Source: an uncultured Massilia sp. (GTDB lineage Bacteria > Pseudomonadota > Gammaproteobacteria > Burkholderiales > Burkholderiaceae_D). From it: 38,407 bases of DNA. The stretch lies in contig CAJYQM010000041.1 of the NCBI GenBank assembly GCA_913777025.1, forward strand, positions 1 through 38,407, read 5' to 3'. Shown here one piece after another: positions 31,722 to 38,407 of this stretch. How positions within the stretch are numbered: the stretch's first letter is position 1; each line of letters begins with the position of its first letter. The notes beneath the pieces are model-generated. The model saw only the letters and a list, made by a program, of their open reading frames with translations, searched no databases and was not told where the DNA came from. The position numbers were made by a program, and so were the translations under genes.

Positions 31722-32888
31722 ATGACCTTGAACCGCCGCGGCTTCCTGGGCGCCGTGCCGATCGCTTCCCTGGGCCTGGCCGCAGGCCGGGTCCAGGCTC
31801 AATACCATAGCGGCGCGCCCGCGGCCTCCACGCCTGCGCCCGTCAGCGATTACGACACGCTGGTGCAGCTGTCCGGCGACGCCCTGCCGCGCAACCCGAC
31901 GCTGGAACCGGCGCGCCTGCAGGCGCTGCTCGAACGCCATGCGAAACCGGTCGACGGCTACCTGGCGGGCGGCGCGGTGGCCGAACTGGAAGCGACATTC
32001 TCCGCGCTGCTCGGCAAGGAAGACACGGTATTCATGCCGACCGGGACCCTGGCCAACCACCTCGCCCTGCGCCTGCTGTGCGGCGACAACAGGCACGCGC
32101 TGGTGCAGCAGGAAAGCCACGTCTACCGCGACGAATCGAACACCGTCACCACCCTCAGCGGCATCAACCTGGTCCCGCTCGCGCCGGGCCAGGCTGCGCC
32201 GTCGCTCGACGAGGTGCGCGCCGCGATCGAGCGTGCCGAGATCGGGCCCTACCCGATCAAGGTCGGCGCCATCGCGCTGGAAAGCCCGGTGCGGCGCGCG
32301 CAGGGTGGCACACTGGCGCCGGCGCTGGTAGCAAGCATCGCGCGCCTCGCGCGCGAAAAGCGCATCGGCCTGCACCTGGACGGCGCGCGCCTGCTCTTGA
32401 TGAGCGGCATGGCCGGCTTCGACGTGAAGTCGTACAGCGCCCACTTCGACACGGTCTACGTCTCGCTCTACAAATACCTGGGCGCGCCTTTCGGGGGCGT
32501 ACTGTCCGGCCCGAAGCCGCTGATGGCGAAGGCGCGCGAGCTGCGCCACATCTTCGGCGGCACGATCTACCACGGCTGGCAGGCGGCGCTGCCGGCGCTG
32601 GATGCGCTGGAGGGCGCCGAACAGCGCTTCGCCAGCGTGCGCGCGGCGGGAGAACGGCTGCTGGCGGCGCTGGAACGGGCCCCAGGCTTCAAGGTGCAGC
32701 GGGTGGAAAACGGCAGCAACCTGGCGCTGCTGGAGATCGCACCAGAGCGGCTGGCGGGGCTGGAAGCCAGGCTGCAGAAAGCCAATGTGCGGCTCGGAAA
32801 GATCAACGAAGGGAAGGTGCAACTGGGCTTCAACGAGTCGATCCTGCGGCGCGATACCGCTTACCTGCTCAAGGCGGTGGCGGGATGA
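31722..32888 (+). CDS. PLP-dependent threonine aldolase-like enzyme with apparent Tat signal
   Basis: A 388-residue fold-type I PLP enzyme of the beta-eliminating lyase / threonine aldolase family. The PLP Lys is probably K251 (VSLYKYLGAPFGGVL), with D220 in HLDGARLL holding the pyridine nitrogen, H133 in QESHVYRDE stacking on the ring and MPTGTLANHLAL in the phosphate-binding region. Such enzymes split L-threonine or related hydroxy-amino acids. Unusually, the N-terminus is MTLNRRGFLGAVPIASLGLA followed by AGRVQAQ, a twin-arginine-like signal ending in an AxA-type cleavage site. GGGGAG precedes the ATG. A small membrane protein gene overlaps the stop. Confidence 0.88.
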   Translation: MTLNRRGFLGAVPIASLGLAAGRVQAQYHSGAPAASTPAPVSDYDTLVQLSGDALPRNPTLEPARLQALLERHAKPVDGYLAGGAVAELEATFSALLGKEDTVFMPTGTLANHLALRLLCGDNRHALVQQESHVYRDESNTVTTLSGINLVPLAPGQAAPSLDEVRAAIERAEIGPYPIKVGAIALESPVRRAQGGTLAPALVASIARLAREKRIGLHLDGARLLLMSGMAGFDVKSYSAHFDTVYVSLYKYLGAPFGGVLSGPKPLMAKARELRHIFGGTIYHGWQAALPALDALEGAEQRFASVRAAGERLLAALERAPGFKVQRVENGSNLALLEIAPERLAGLEARLQKANVRLGKINEGKVQLGFNESILRRDTAYLLKAVAG

Positions 32889-33172
32889 TGCAAGCCGCTC
32901 CCGACCAGTCCCAGCCCGTCCACCGTGGCCGCTTCATCCTGAAGCATCTCGGCTTGACGGCCATCGTGGGCTTCATCAGCTTCATGCTGAGCGCCTACTT
33001 CATCACCTTGCTGCTGGCGATCGCACCGCTGTTTGCCATCCCCAAGGCCAACAAGACAGACAGGGCGACCTACGCCATCAGCACCTTGCTTGCGCTCGTA
33101 ATGCTTGCATGCGTCTTTGGCCTGACCTTGCTGTTGTTCGTGATGGCGCTTGGGAACGGCAATTGGCGCTAG
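32885..33172 (+). CDS. Small two-span membrane protein
   Basis: A 95-residue protein with a hydrophilic N-terminus (MMQAAPDQSQPVHRGRFILK) and two hydrophobic spans (GLTAIVGFISFMLSAYFITL running into LLAIAPLFAI, then ISTLLALVMLACVFGLTLLL), separated by the charged loop PKANKTDRAT. I know no family. The start overlaps the stop of the PLP enzyme gene (ATGATG at 32885-32890), so translation is coupled; either ATG could be used. It may be a partner of that exported enzyme, but this is only positional. Confidence 0.7.
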   Translation: MMQAAPDQSQPVHRGRFILKHLGLTAIVGFISFMLSAYFITLLLAIAPLFAIPKANKTDRATYAISTLLALVMLACVFGLTLLLFVMALGNGNWR

Positions 33173-33187
33173 ATTGCGCCGGCGCCT

Positions 33188-33223
33188 GGTGGGTTCGGCA
33201 TGCCTGCGCCTGCCGCGCCCACC
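33188..33223. repeat. Imperfect hairpin in the convergent gap before the SMC gene
   Basis: GGTGGG (33188-33193) pairs with CCCACC (33218-33223), and GGCA (33197-33200) with TGCC (33211-33214), giving a long interrupted stem. It resembles a worn REP unit. Next to it, GCGTAAG-G-CTTACGC (33226-33240) is a perfect palindrome that overlaps the SMC gene stop. Together they could end transcription from both sides. Confidence 0.4.
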
Positions 33224-33234
33224 CTGCGTAAGGC

Positions 33235-36066
33235 TTACGCCGCCTTGGCTTCCTTATCGCCTTCCTTGCGCCGCTGCAGCACGAAGATCGGCTGCGCCCA
33301 CTGCGTATCCTTCTTCTTCTTGCTCGTGATGAGCGTCAGGTCCGAAGGATCGTAGACGTCGGTGTTGTGGGTCAGCGGCGTGGTCATCAGGTACTGGGCG
33401 TCGGTGTTCTTGAGGAACTCGCCGACCAGCTGGATGTTGCGGATGTCCAGGTGGGCGAAGGGTTCGTCGATGAACACGAAGCCGCCGGAACCCTCTTCCG
33501 ATTTCAGCAGGCCGATCAAGAGCACCAGCGACTTCATCACCTGCTGGCCGCCGGAGGCCTCGCCGTCGTTCATGCCGATCTGGCCCTTGCCGTCGAACTT
33601 GAAGCGCACCTGCAGGCCGGCCTGGGCCAGCTGGATGTCGTCGTTTTCCAGGCGCACCGGGTCCACCGAGACTTCGATGTTGGCCAGCTCGCCCAGCTCC
33701 CTGATGTTCTTCGAATAGGTCTTGATCGTGTAGCGCAGGCGCTCGATATAGGCGCCGCGCGCGTTGTCGGTGGCTTCGATCGCGCGGTTGTTCTGGTAGC
33801 GGCGCTCCTCGGTCTCGTTCTGGCGGCCGGACAGCTGCTCGTTCAGGCGCTCGTACTGGTCGATGACGGTCGGGTCCTGTTCCCAGTTGCCGCGCTCCAG
33901 CGAATTGTCCAGCGAATTCATGCGCAGCTTGACCTGGTGCGCGTTCTGGTGGGTCGCCACCAGCGCCGCGCGCTGCTGCGGGTTGCGCCAGCTCTTCGGC
34001 ACGTGGCGCCAGTTGCGGCGCAGCGCCAGCAGGTCGCGCGCGTGCTCGCTGCGCTGCTCGAGCTGGCGGCGGTTGTTCAGGCGCATGCCGGCTTCCGCTT
34101 CCGACAGCGCCATGCGCGCGTTCTGCCAGACGGTGTCGGCGCGGGTGCGGGTGACTGTCGCGTTCTTGATCAGGACCTGCAGCTCGCCCAGGCGCGCGCC
34201 CACCTGCAGGCGTTCGGCACGCAAAGGTTCCAGCGCGCGCGTCGCTTCCTCGAACTCGGCCTGGCGCGCCGCCAGTTCCTTGGCCGCGTCGACGCCGGCG
34301 ATGCGCACGCGCAGGCTCGAGACTTCGGCGGCCAGCTTGCTGATCGCCAGCGTCAGGCTGTCTTCCTGGGCTTCCAGCGACGGCAGCAGCTTCTGGATCG
34401 CTTCCAGGCGTTGGGTCTTGCCGGCCGCGCCGAAACGGTAGCGCGAGGGCTCGACGAACAGCGAGCGTCCGCCGCGCCGTTCGCGGTGGTAGGCGTCCGG
34501 GGTGATCCACTCGTCCGAGTCGCTCTTGAAGCCGGCGTCGACCGACTCCACGCGCTCGATGCGTTCCAGCTGGTCGATCAGCCAGCCCGGGGCCGCGCTA
34601 CTGAAGCGCACGACCGACAGCAGGGTATCGTCCCTGACCACCGGCGCGTCGACGCAATCGGGCACGATGAAGTGGCGGTAACGCTCCTTCTCCGCCAGTT
34701 TATAGGCCGCCGGCGCATCCTTGGCGCGCTCCAGCAGCACCACCGACGCATAGCCGCCCAGCACGCCCTCGACCGCGCCCTGCCATTTCGGGTCCGTCAC
34801 TTCGACGATGTCCGACAGCATGGCGTGCGGGATGCCCGCATCGCGCAGTGCGCGGCGCATCTGGCGCTGGGCTTCCGGTTCCGGCATCGTGGTCTTGCCC
34901 TGTAGCGCCGAGATGGTCGACATCTCGCCGGCGATGCGGGTGGCGACGGCGTCGCGCTCGGCCTTCTTCTTGCCCAGCTCGGCCTCCTTGGCCTGCAGCT
35001 GTTCGGCGACTTCCGCGATGTCGGCGCCGGCGTCCGCCGCCAGCTTGTTCAAGCGCTCCTTCTGCTCGAGCAGGGATTCCAGCGGCTTCAGCTTGGCGTT
35101 GACCTGCGTGAGGCGGCTCGCCAGTTCGCTCGCTTCCCCTTCCAGCTTGACTTCCTGCTGCTGGGCTTCGGTCAAGGCGCGCTGCTGGGCCGCCAGCGCG
35201 TTGCGCTTCTCGGCCAGGATCGAATCGGCCTGCATCAGCGGCTTCTTCGCCTCGCGCAGCTGGCGGCTGATGTTGGCCGCCTTTTCGCGCGCCTCGTGGT
35301 ATTCGAGGCTGGGCAGGACTTCTTCCACCAGGGTCTTGCGTTCCTTGTTCAGGTCTTCCCACTGATGGTAGTTGGCCACGCGCAGCCGCAGGCCCTCGAG
35401 GTTGATGCGCGAGGTTTCCAGTTCGGCTTCGAAGCGCTTCAGCTCGGACTCGGTGTCGCGCTGGTGGCGCTTGGCTTCGTCGTAGGCGTCCAGCACTTCC
35501 TTGTCGCCGAACACCTGGAACACCAGGTCCAGCAGCTGGCGCGGCGAGTATTCGCACAGTTTATCGGTCTCGCCCTGCTCCAGCGCCAGCACCTTGGACA
35601 TCGCCGGCGACAGGCCGGCCGAAGCCAGACGTTTCCGGTAGTTCTCGACGCCGAGCCAGTCGGTGGCGTCGGTGACTTCCTCGATGTCGATGTTCCCGGG
35701 GCGCATCAGGTACTGGCGCTTCCAGTCGCCGCCGTTCTTCTGCACCTGGCAGAACAGCGTCACTTCGTCGTCGCTGAAGAAGCCGGAGTGGCGGAACGGG
35801 CGGTTCGACAGCTGGCGGCCGCTCGGCTTGTTGTCGACCACGGCGCGGATCCAGGCGCTCTGCTGGCCCGAGTGGCGCGCGTAATGCTTGTAGGTGCGCC
35901 CCATCGAGCAGTCCAGGCCGAACAGCGTGCGCATGGCGTCGAGCAGCGTGGTCTTGCCGGAGCCGTTCTGGCCGGCGATGGTGATGATCTTGGCGTCGAG
36001 CGGGATGTTCTTGATCCGCTGCCAGTAGTCCCAGTGGACCAGCTCGAGAGATTTGATGTGGAACAT
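33235..36066 (-). CDS. SMC-family ATPase of a MukB/MksB/JetC-like condensin
   Basis: A 943-residue SMC-like protein, the DNA-loop motor candidate of this operon. Walker A is GQNGSGKTT at 32-40, with the N-terminal head at about 1-190. The first coiled-coil arm is at about 195-390. A hinge-like globular part follows at about 400-545 (PKWQGAVEGVLGGYASVVLL is the SMC-hinge style). The second arm is at about 550-800. The C-terminal head has the signature ASGGQQ (837-842), Walker B FVFIDEP (863-869, Glu868 catalytic) and the D-loop HLD. All ATPase motifs are intact. It is shorter than MukB (1486). It begins nine bases after the winged-helix gene, third in the operon. SbcC or RecN are less likely given its neighbours. 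Confidence 0.85.
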   Translation of the reverse strand: MFHIKSLELVHWDYWQRIKNIPLDAKIITIAGQNGSGKTTLLDAMRTLFGLDCSMGRTYKHYARHSGQQSAWIRAVVDNKPSGRQLSNRPFRHSGFFSDDEVTLFCQVQKNGGDWKRQYLMRPGNIDIEEVTDATDWLGVENYRKRLASAGLSPAMSKVLALEQGETDKLCEYSPRQLLDLVFQVFGDKEVLDAYDEAKRHQRDTESELKRFEAELETSRINLEGLRLRVANYHQWEDLNKERKTLVEEVLPSLEYHEAREKAANISRQLREAKKPLMQADSILAEKRNALAAQQRALTEAQQQEVKLEGEASELASRLTQVNAKLKPLESLLEQKERLNKLAADAGADIAEVAEQLQAKEAELGKKKAERDAVATRIAGEMSTISALQGKTTMPEPEAQRQMRRALRDAGIPHAMLSDIVEVTDPKWQGAVEGVLGGYASVVLLERAKDAPAAYKLAEKERYRHFIVPDCVDAPVVRDDTLLSVVRFSSAAPGWLIDQLERIERVESVDAGFKSDSDEWITPDAYHRERRGGRSLFVEPSRYRFGAAGKTQRLEAIQKLLPSLEAQEDSLTLAISKLAAEVSSLRVRIAGVDAAKELAARQAEFEEATRALEPLRAERLQVGARLGELQVLIKNATVTRTRADTVWQNARMALSEAEAGMRLNNRRQLEQRSEHARDLLALRRNWRHVPKSWRNPQQRAALVATHQNAHQVKLRMNSLDNSLERGNWEQDPTVIDQYERLNEQLSGRQNETEERRYQNNRAIEATDNARGAYIERLRYTIKTYSKNIRELGELANIEVSVDPVRLENDDIQLAQAGLQVRFKFDGKGQIGMNDGEASGGQQVMKSLVLLIGLLKSEEGSGGFVFIDEPFAHLDIRNIQLVGEFLKNTDAQYLMTTPLTHNTDVYDPSDLTLITSKKKKDTQWAQPIFVLQRRKEGDKEAKAA

Positions 36067-36075
36067 GCGCTTTGT

Positions 36076-36822
36076 TTAACCTTGAGTATCGGGTGCGTCG
36101 GCGGGAGCGTCCGCTGCGACCGGCTCGGCCGGCGCGGCTTCCGTCGAAGCGGCATCGTTGGCCGCCTCGCTGGCCGGACGGCGCCGTGCCACCGCCAGCG
36201 GCGCGCGCTTGAACACTTCGGCCAGCGCGCCGTTGATGATGCGTTCCTTGAGCAGGTCGGTGTCCATCAGCAGGTCCAGCAGCGGGCCTTCCAGGATCAC
36301 GTCGCCGCGCCGTTCGATGAAGCCGAGCTTCGAGAGCAGGCCGAGGTTCATGTCCATGCGCGTCTTCTTGCCCAGCTTGTCGCCGAAGTCGGCCAGCAGC
36401 GTGGTGTAGGAGATGCCGATCGACGTGTCCTCGGCGCGCGGGATCGGGTTGTCCTTGTCGAACATGTCGGACTGGTCGACGTCGATCGCCTGGTGGGTTT
36501 CCTGGCGCTGGCGCTTGGGCAGGATGATCTGCGCCCACAGCACGACCAGCAGCGCGACGCCGTCGCGCGTCAGGCCGAAGTTATTGTTCTGCCAGACGTC
36601 CTTGGCGCCGAAGATCTTCGGCTCGACGTTGCGGTGCAGGGCCAGGGTCACGTGGTCGGCATACACGTTGTCGATCAGCTTCAGGCCGGATTCCAGCAGG
36701 CGCTTGTCGACTTCGGTGCGGAACAGGTCGTCGGACAGCGCGCGCTTGACCATCTTGTCGTCGCGGCGCAGGGTCTGGTGCGTGAGCAGTCGCGCGATCA
36801 GGATTTGGGCGTCGTCATTCAT
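36076..36822 (-). CDS. Winged-helix (KITE-like, MksE/JetB-type) subunit
   Basis: A 248-residue protein with a compact helical/winged-helix part (about 1-200) and a disordered Ala/Pro/Glu tail (EAAPAEPVAADAPADAPDTQG). Notable segments are MNDDAQILIARLLTHQTLRR, RDGVALLVVLWAQIILPKRQ, SIGISYTTLLADFGDKLGKKTR, LGLLSKLGFIERRGDVILEG (a winged-helix wing) and the end of the domain LLKERIINGALAEVFKRAPL. Size and position between a kleisin-like gene and an SMC gene match MukE/MksE/JetB. It overlaps the preceding gene by eight bases (ATGAATGA). I base the call on context plus fold pattern, as the sequence similarity to known MksE is not something I can measure here. Confidence 0.7.
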   Translation of the reverse strand: MNDDAQILIARLLTHQTLRRDDKMVKRALSDDLFRTEVDKRLLESGLKLIDNVYADHVTLALHRNVEPKIFGAKDVWQNNNFGLTRDGVALLVVLWAQIILPKRQRQETHQAIDVDQSDMFDKDNPIPRAEDTSIGISYTTLLADFGDKLGKKTRMDMNLGLLSKLGFIERRGDVILEGPLLDLLMDTDLLKERIINGALAEVFKRAPLAVARRRPASEAANDAASTEAAPAEPVAADAPADAPDTQG

Positions 36823-38233
36823 GGCTATCCAGGTTCAAATCGAATGCGGGTGGAATGTACAGGGCGGAGCGCGGCGGCTCGGGCGGCGGCACGACCGACA
36901 GGGCCGCGCGCGACATCGCCGCGACCTGCGGGTCGTCCAGCTCGACCATCTCGTCCTCGGACGTGAACTGCACCGGCAGGCGCGCAAGCTCCGCGGTCGC
37001 GCCCTGCAGGCTGGCCTCGGCGGCATCGCCCAAGAGCGGCAGCAGCGAGGCGCGATAGGACGCCACGGCAAAGCTGGCCGGCAGCAGCGAGTCCTGGATC
37101 GGCACGCTCCTCGGCGCGCCTTCGGCCACTTCCGGGAAGTTGTCCAGGTTGGCGAAGTCGGACAGGCGGGCGATCCAGTCGTTCAGTTCGGCCTGCAGGG
37201 CCGGATTGTCGTTGATGGTGAGCGGCGCGTCCTCGCCGCTGGGCAGGCCGCCCGGCGCGGTGTTGACCGGGCGCTCGGTCATCAACTCTGTCTCGGCGAC
37301 GTCGATCATCTCGGCCGGCGTCATGAACAGCGGCAGCACCGGCCGCTCGATCGCGCCCTCGGCCAGGCTGGCCAGGTCCTCGTGGGCCAGCAGCCAGCGC
37401 TTGATGTCGGTGGTCGACAGGCCGGACTGGCCCAGGTGCACGCGCTGGCGCTCGATCTGGTTCAGCGCGCGCGAGAACATGCCCTGCATGTTCAGCAGCT
37501 GCGACTGGGCGCGCCCGATCGCCTGGGCGGCGCGGTGGGTGGCGGAGTCGGCGTTCTCGTCCGAGGTGATCGCACGCAGGATGACGGAGCCCTTCTCGAC
37601 CCAGTCGCAGGCCGTGTGCCACTTCGCCTGCGAGGCGCGCAGGCGGAATTCGGAACCGGAAGCGATGGCATCGCGGAATTCCTCATGCAGCTCGACCAGG
37701 CGGCCCAGCAGGTGCTTCAGCTGCTCCACCGTGACGCCGCCCACGGCCTGGGCGCCGGCCACCTGCGACAGCAGGAAGCCCATCTCGGCATCGTCTTCCT
37801 CGGGCTTGGCCAGTGCCAGCAGCGTGTCCAGCGCGGCCAGCACGTTACGCGCCAGCGGCGTGATGCGGTAGACCGCGGCCGGGTTGTCCCAGGCCAGCAG
37901 GCCGTGGCTGCGCAGGCGGCCCAGCACCGTTTCCAGGCTTTCCGGGATCAGGTAGGCGAATTTCTGGTTGATGTCGGCGCGCGAAAACGCCGAGTCGGCC
38001 GGGTCCGCGGCCAGCTCGCGCAAGACCAGCAGGCGCACGATGACGCCGTCCTGGCCGCCGTGGAACAGGGCCGTGAACGCCTGCAGCATCGGCTGCGCGC
38101 GCTTGAGCATGTAGACCTGCTCGATCTCGTCCGGCGCGACACCCGCATGGAAGTGGGCTTGCAGCGGATCGATCTCATCCAGGGCTGGGGAATGGGCGTC
38201 GGCGGCGACAGCGCCTGCCAGATTGTCGATCAT
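36815..38233 (-). CDS. Kleisin-like (MukF/MksF/JetA-type) subunit
   Basis: A 472-residue protein, first gene of the SMC operon. The N-terminal domain contains a winged helix (IVRLLVLRELAADPADSAFS, then ADINQKFAYLIPESLETVLG and LRSHGLLAWDNPAAVYRITP). A helical middle region (about 150-330) includes QAIGRAQSQLLNMQGMFSRA and NQIERQRVHLGQSGLSTTDI. A flexible acidic linker and a small C-terminal segment (PRSALYIPPAFDLNLDSHE) follow. This is the layout of MukF/MksF kleisins, which bridge the SMC heads. The ATG at 38233 has only a weak purine-rich site. An extended -10 stands about 58 bases upstream. It overlaps the next gene by eight bases. Confidence 0.7.
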   Translation of the reverse strand: MIDNLAGAVAADAHSPALDEIDPLQAHFHAGVAPDEIEQVYMLKRAQPMLQAFTALFHGGQDGVIVRLLVLRELAADPADSAFSRADINQKFAYLIPESLETVLGRLRSHGLLAWDNPAAVYRITPLARNVLAALDTLLALAKPEEDDAEMGFLLSQVAGAQAVGGVTVEQLKHLLGRLVELHEEFRDAIASGSEFRLRASQAKWHTACDWVEKGSVILRAITSDENADSATHRAAQAIGRAQSQLLNMQGMFSRALNQIERQRVHLGQSGLSTTDIKRWLLAHEDLASLAEGAIERPVLPLFMTPAEMIDVAETELMTERPVNTAPGGLPSGEDAPLTINDNPALQAELNDWIARLSDFANLDNFPEVAEGAPRSVPIQDSLLPASFAVASYRASLLPLLGDAAEASLQGATAELARLPVQFTSEDEMVELDDPQVAAMSRAALSVVPPPEPPRSALYIPPAFDLNLDSHE

Positions 38234-38290
38234 CGTAGGACTTGCCAGTTTTGCATGTCGCGCCCGAGGGCGGACGGAAGCGGGGGCGTC

Positions 38291-38299
38291 AGTATATCA
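38291..38299 (-). promoter_or_regulatory. Extended -10 promoter of the SMC operon
   Basis: On the minus strand TGATATACT (38291-38299) is an extended -10 (TGnTATACT). No good -35 is seen at 16-18 bases, as is common for extended -10 promoters. The leader to the kleisin-like ATG is about 50 bases. Confidence 0.4.
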
Positions 38300-38318
38300 G
38301 TAACACTGAGCAGTTAAG

Positions 38319-38407
38319 CCTAGGCAACTAATAAGAATGGAACCAGGGATTCTACAACTGGCGAATATGCAACGGAATCCCGGTTCCATTCTTATTAGTT
38401 GCCTAGG
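38319..38407. repeat. Terminal hairpin at the right edge
   Basis: Positions 38319-38344 are a perfect reverse complement of 38382-38407 (26 bases, beginning and ending CCTAGG). After a bulged A (38345), GGGATTC (38346-38352) pairs with GAATCCC (38375-38381), leaving a 22-base loop. The outer arm stops exactly at the window edge. As at the left edge, pairing is imperfect only near the loop. It may be a second fold-back artefact. It may instead be a natural hairpin, or the end of a small element with terminal inverted repeats. Confidence 0.85.

Follow-up and report, generated by a model that had tools for sequence, protein, structure and literature searches.

A three-gene SMC, kleisin and KITE operon of Massilia that may be the core of a divergent Wadjet lineage without its nuclease

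The window is a stretch of 38,407 nucleotides that makes up an entire contig (G000:C41) of a Massilia genome of 4.73 Mb, assembled in 542 contigs and 83.5% complete. Three open reading frames lie on its minus strand: F (36815..38233; 472 aa), a kleisin-like subunit in the position of JetA and MukF; E (36076..36822; 248 aa), a KITE-like tandem winged-helix subunit in the position of JetB and MukE; and B (33235..36066; 943 aa), an SMC ATPase in the position of JetC, MksB and MukB. F and E are named from Foldseek matches of their predicted models, B from Pfam, PADLOC and hhalign. An earlier note on this DNA described an operon in the order kleisin-like, winged-helix, SMC, with a compact SMC of 943 residues, and the reading frames confirm both the order and the length. 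The ends of the frames also reproduce its eight-base overlap of F and E (36815..36822, minus strand) and its nine-base gap between E and B (36067..36075, minus strand).

The genes beyond the 3' end of B are on the plus strand and converge on it, with reading frames ending at 32888 and 33172; among these neighbours is a predicted beta-eliminating lyase (reading frame 31722-32885, plus strand). Upstream of F, 174 bases remain before the contig ends. With converging neighbours on one side and the contig end on the other, the absence of a nuclease from the operon, as first noted, holds. The hairpins reported in the convergent gap do not stand out: three terminator-like hairpins were found in 33000-38407, and shuffled sequences gave a mean of 4.4 (sd 2.4). 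On the side upstream of F the contig ends in a perfect 26-base inverted repeat (38319-38344 and 38382-38407) with a 37-base spacer, which was found in 0 of 292 other loci examined and may represent a fold-back of the assembly or a small mobile element.

B carries the motifs of an SMC ATPase. Walker A GQNGSGKTT (residues 32-40; 35947..35973), the ABC signature SGGQ (residues 838-841; 33544..33555) and Walker B FVFIDEPF (Walker B at residues 863-868; 33463..33480), all on the minus strand, are kept in 155 of 155 family members. A probable hinge (residues 415-500; 34567..34824, minus strand) is suggested by a weak match to Pfam SMC_hinge, under the cut-off at E 0.011. B matches Pfam SMC_N at 2.7e-13 and PADLOC JetC1 at 7.8e-19, the latter far under the score of a true JetC (1199.7 bits). 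When the B family was compared by hhalign, probabilities were 96.9-98.8% against three JetC sets, 79% against MukB and 1.4% or less against three controls. Other SMC models fit poorly: the MukB N-terminal model PF04310 reached E 0.012 and 15.8 bits (cut-off 23), NCBIfam MukB 15.9 bits against a cut-off of 699, and SMC_prok_B 75.8 bits, far under its cut-off of 567.

The partners of B are harder to recognise. The HMM searches proposed in the earlier note, which matched B to JetC1, gave no convincing match for F or E among Pfam, NCBIfam or PADLOC models; the PADLOC search of F returned MkoB only, at E 0.008. Models of JetA (DUF3375/DUF5716) and JetB (DUF4194) did not match F or E, and phmmer and profile searches of the PDB returned nothing useful for either. 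By hhalign, comparisons with JetA, JetB, MukF and MukE stayed at or below 1.5%, on a par with controls. The E protein of one divergent relative reached 5.6e-4 against DUF4194, below the cut-off.

Because sequence-profile links to JetA, JetB, MukF and MukE are absent, the identity of F and E rests on partial structural models, which were predicted with AlphaFold from Oxalobacteraceae alignments of 68 (F) and 52 (E) sequences. The F model has a mean pLDDT of 60.2 and is ordered only at residues ~21-265, its N-terminal half. Foldseek placed MukF-containing entries at all of its ranks 1-7 (best 9gm7_C, E 1.3e-4, the one match below E 0.001), so that a MukF-type kleisin fold is predicted for F from the N-terminal half, which alone is reliable. 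The E model (mean pLDDT 55.5) is good at residues 1-60 only, and its ranks 1-4 are all KITE-containing entries: PA14 JetABC (8dk1_F, E 9.5e-4), Nse1-Nse3-Nse4 (7dg2_A), E. coli JetABC (8as8_C) and MAGE-G1/NSE1 (5hvq_C). Subunit identities of the matched PDB chains were read from chain lengths. As partial models of low confidence with low TM-scores (0.18-0.30), they support, without proving, the assignment of F as a kleisin beside MukF and of E as a KITE protein beside JetB.

F, E and B occur on the same strand and in the same order in 154 of 155 loci, the exception being a cut contig of 4.6 kb, and this arrangement is far beyond chance. The 155 loci encode 145 distinct B proteins, because some genomes were entered twice. 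The fixed operon bears on the reading of B as a repair ATPase of the RecN, SbcC or Rad50 kind lying beside two unrelated small genes. The PDB search did find weak similarity of B to Rad50 heads (best 4.9e-6), but such a reading would not account for the constant gene order, the JetC match is stronger, and the predicted folds of F and E resemble MukF and KITE entries. On operon order, partner folds and the JetC match we rejected the repair reading, which is highly improbable; RecN- or SbcC-like matches with unrelated partners, which the earlier note had set against its own proposal, were not seen.

The complex is conserved within the genus and scattered beyond it. B occurs in all 25 genomes sampled from the genus (in one as two pieces), in 2 of 16 other genomes from the order, and in 63 of the 399 genomes and 33 of the 158 genera of Burkholderiales sampled, a widespread SMC complex that defence finders and family libraries overlook. 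Since other families of the order are without it, B is dispensable. Among the best 80 of 396 stretches encoding a B relative, those named at 80-95% identity belong to Massilia, Duganella, Janthinobacterium, Rugamonas and Pseudoduganella (Oxalobacteraceae), apart from a few records that bear other labels. Samples of the class outside the order yielded a single full-length match (G784, of genus g425), and F-E-B is present in 8 of 8 genomes of that genus. All three genes are under purifying selection, with dN/dS of 0.10-0.34 in 30 of 30 comparisons (three genes, ten pairs of Massilia-type relatives).

Two chromosomal sites recur. In families other than Oxalobacteraceae, obgE precedes F in 35 of 50 loci (in 27 within 1000 nt of the frame of F), and many of these loci also carry rpmA, rplU and a divergent polyprenyl synthetase. 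The Oxalobacteraceae site differs: in 60 of 80 loci a DUF3108 gene precedes F by 800 nt or less, and 73 have one anywhere in the locus. The fixed obgE and DUF3108 sites suggest long vertical inheritance.

A search of 80 genomes with JetD_C gave, in three of them, a match just after B, and thereby led to a gene of ~430 aa, here called G, that directly follows B in 12 of 51 loci from Burkholderiales families other than Oxalobacteraceae. From its sequence, G is best described as a divergent JetD nuclease. The four G proteins scanned all matched PADLOC JetD1 (best matches 2.8e-22, 4.4e-16, 9.6e-11 and 2.9e-11), and one of them also matched Pfam DUF2399 and JetD_C. The G family aligned by hhalign with one JetD set (95.9%, E 6e-9), and with two others at 0.2%. 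Acidic motifs of the Toprim type are retained: the E of VEN..FE in 13 of 13 sequences and DxD in 12 of 13. Of the 12 G genes, JetD_C itself detects three.

In Oxalobacteraceae a profile of G matched in 0 of 104 loci, 98 of which extend at least 1.5 kb past B; the JetD gene that the earlier note had envisaged directly beyond the right edge of the window was thus not found among relatives. JetD_C and DUF3322 had no match in the 83.5% complete genome that holds the window, and as JetD_C finds 3 of 12 G genes, its silence there leaves room for a distant G. The proposal of a nuclease-less Wadjet derivative, made in the earlier note, is supported by several lines of evidence: B resembles JetC, the E model JetB and the F model MukF, and kin of the operon carry a JetD-like gene after B.

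The presence of G varies between close relatives at the same site. In genus g425, G occurs in 2 of the 8 genomes. In one G-bearing locus (L248) a DUF938 methyltransferase gene starts 71 nt after G; in L254 the distance from B to the start of the corresponding gene is 72 nt, and in L251, where the match is slightly shorter, 8 nt. What L248 has in common with L251, L253 and L254 is the downstream flank alone (in L253 it lies 929 nt after B), and with L249 only the upstream flank. In a second group both flanks are common to the G-bearing loci L175 and L197 and to L168, which lacks G, and L175 likewise shares both with L178, also without G; other genes occupy the place of G in L168 and L178. L170 and L168 have only the downstream flank in common, and L191 (with G) and L188 (without) have no common flank at the nucleotide level. 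Presence and absence of G at the same site is thus indicated by sequence in two groups and not by every pair compared. No relics of G were found in the nuclease-less loci.

On the family tree G is present in 13 of 65 rows, and simple parsimony needs five changes, which do not fix the direction. These were quick trees for which the program warned of long branches meeting, and their deep order was not used. L192 (a frame running far beyond B) and L205 (a cut contig) were left out of the trees, L182 (a cut G) out of the G tree, and G788 (a gene split over two contigs) out of the B tree. A history running in the opposite direction, in which the ancestor was a condensin without nuclease and G was acquired on several occasions, would suit the 52 of 65 rows without G; G may have been gained separately in group f198, where it forms a long branch. 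We hold such a history to be unlikely as a general account. G is always found in the JetD place after B, and the main clades of its tree are those of the B tree, a pattern that ancient common inheritance would produce. The nuclease was probably lost several times in place, with the motor kept.

A part of the B family still resembles mobile defence genes. On two Variovorax plasmids, pieces of B (L293 6025-7488; L294 6022-8573) are interrupted by the Tn3-like element IS1071 and annotated merely as "AAA family ATPase" and "ATP-binding protein". On the RA8 plasmid, a G-like gene (JetD1 3.4e-15, G profile 8.7e-84) comes after the piece of B, and beyond it lie xseA, xseB and, a few genes on, a BilD-like gene. 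The existence of such G-bearing kin, one of them on a plasmid beside BilD, and the fact that, among profiled proteins, those nearest to B are the JetC proteins of defence systems, would fit an operon that is still devoted to defence, its nuclease-less complex trapping or silencing small circular DNA or borrowing a nuclease encoded elsewhere. JetD_C matches do occur in 11 of 50 nuclease-less genomes, seven of them strong, and belong to separate Wadjets where inspected. The other 39 genomes have no JetD_C match anywhere, and single-copy, genus-wide inheritance at a fixed site is unlike that of mobile defence genes; a continuing defence role therefore seems improbable to us. Three genus relatives (G008, G011 and G012; loci L228, L229 and L230) carry an additional, separate Wadjet-like operon with a strong JetD.

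Comparison with known systems places the operon near several of them and within none. It shares with Wadjet type I (JetABCD, also named MksBEFG or EptABCD) the gene order kleisin, KITE, SMC; B is nearest JetC, the E model is nearest JetB, and kin of the operon have a JetD-like nuclease in the D place. The operon differs in that a co-encoded JetD is absent, both from the window and from the Oxalobacteraceae loci surveyed (in other families, 12 of 51 loci have one), in that F and E are unrecognised by JetA and JetB models, in its inheritance at fixed chromosomal sites, and in the length of B, 943 aa compared with JetC frames of 1122-1210 aa. MukBEF of E. coli also has the order F-E-B with overlapping F and E, and the F model matches MukF, but MukB is 1486 aa long and its model PF04310 stays below cut-off on B. 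Smc-ScpAB has the SMC-kleisin-KITE architecture in common with the operon; B is far under the SMC_prok_B cut-off, and ScpA lies on another contig. Judged by sequence models, the operon is filed neither as Wadjet, its nuclease being absent and the JetA and JetB models silent, nor as MukBEF, nor as Smc-ScpAB.

MksBEF of P. aeruginosa is likewise a nuclease-less three-gene SMC-kleisin-KITE operon beside Smc-ScpAB, and on these shared features (gene order, lack of a nuclease, coexistence) the present operon might simply be a member of that family, with no lineage of its own. The searches made with the MksE model and in Pseudomonadaceae genomes tend to speak against such membership, which we regard as unlikely. 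The MksE model PF21980 has no match in the genome that holds the window, and 388 Pseudomonadaceae genomes, with two candidates scored in each, contained no full-length relative of B; the best partial match there scored 54.8 bits, compared with 1156 bits in g425. Existing models do not clearly place the lineage among described systems, since they fail on F and E and PF21980 is silent. Genomes bearing OprF, tried as a route to P. aeruginosa MksB, held ordinary type I-like Wadjet operons where inspected and no MksBEF.

In E. coli MukBEF replaces Smc-ScpAB, and a control search for ScpA was silent there. Of 62 holders of the operon, 60 have ScpA, among them the genome that holds the window, where it lies on a separate contig (G000:C239). 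The complex would act beside Smc-ScpAB.

We conclude, with a probability of roughly 0.68, that F, E and B form the SMC-kleisin-KITE core of a divergent Wadjet from whose lineage JetD has disappeared, and that this core acts on the cell's own chromosome. Wadjet and MukBEF (PMC10512200, PMC10586767) offer a model for the assembly of F-E-B and for DNA reeling. In Wadjet, JetD is triggered by a fully reeled circle. By this model two B subunits would be joined by the kleisin F, which would bridge their heads, and the KITE protein E would sit on F; the ATP-driven ring would hold DNA and reel in loops over cycles of ATP. As no JetD is encoded with the complex, what remains is the motor, and reeling would no longer end in cutting. 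It would act on the chromosome in compaction, segregation or the clearing of DNA. We think that the three-gene form may now organise chromosomal DNA, a view strengthened by the precedent for chromosome organisation in P. aeruginosa (PMC7485682).

A wider reading, to which we give slightly less than even odds, is that a Wadjet lineage unseen by family models was disarmed in place on repeated occasions across different groups of proteobacteria, and that its motor was retained by selection and became a chromosome organiser. Genus g425, in which some species are armed and others disarmed at the one locus, would have been caught midway, and genus g5 may rely on the motor as its sole condensin. As the B family holds armed and disarmed forms at the same sites, a change from defence to housekeeping, or the reverse, is testable in close relatives one gene apart, and the operon lends itself to studying how a weapon may become a housekeeping machine.

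In both genomes of genus g5 surveyed (G028 and G620; loci L027 and L153) F-E-B is present and ScpA was not found; F-E-B has perhaps taken over from Smc-ScpAB there. The spacing of the genes also varies. Gaps of ~400-800 nt separate F from E in L155, L157, L159, L160, L165, L171 and L174, and E from B in L027, L154, L158, L171 and L200. In L192 (8949-16665) the frame of B is open to 2572 aa, and the match to B covers residues 1-880.
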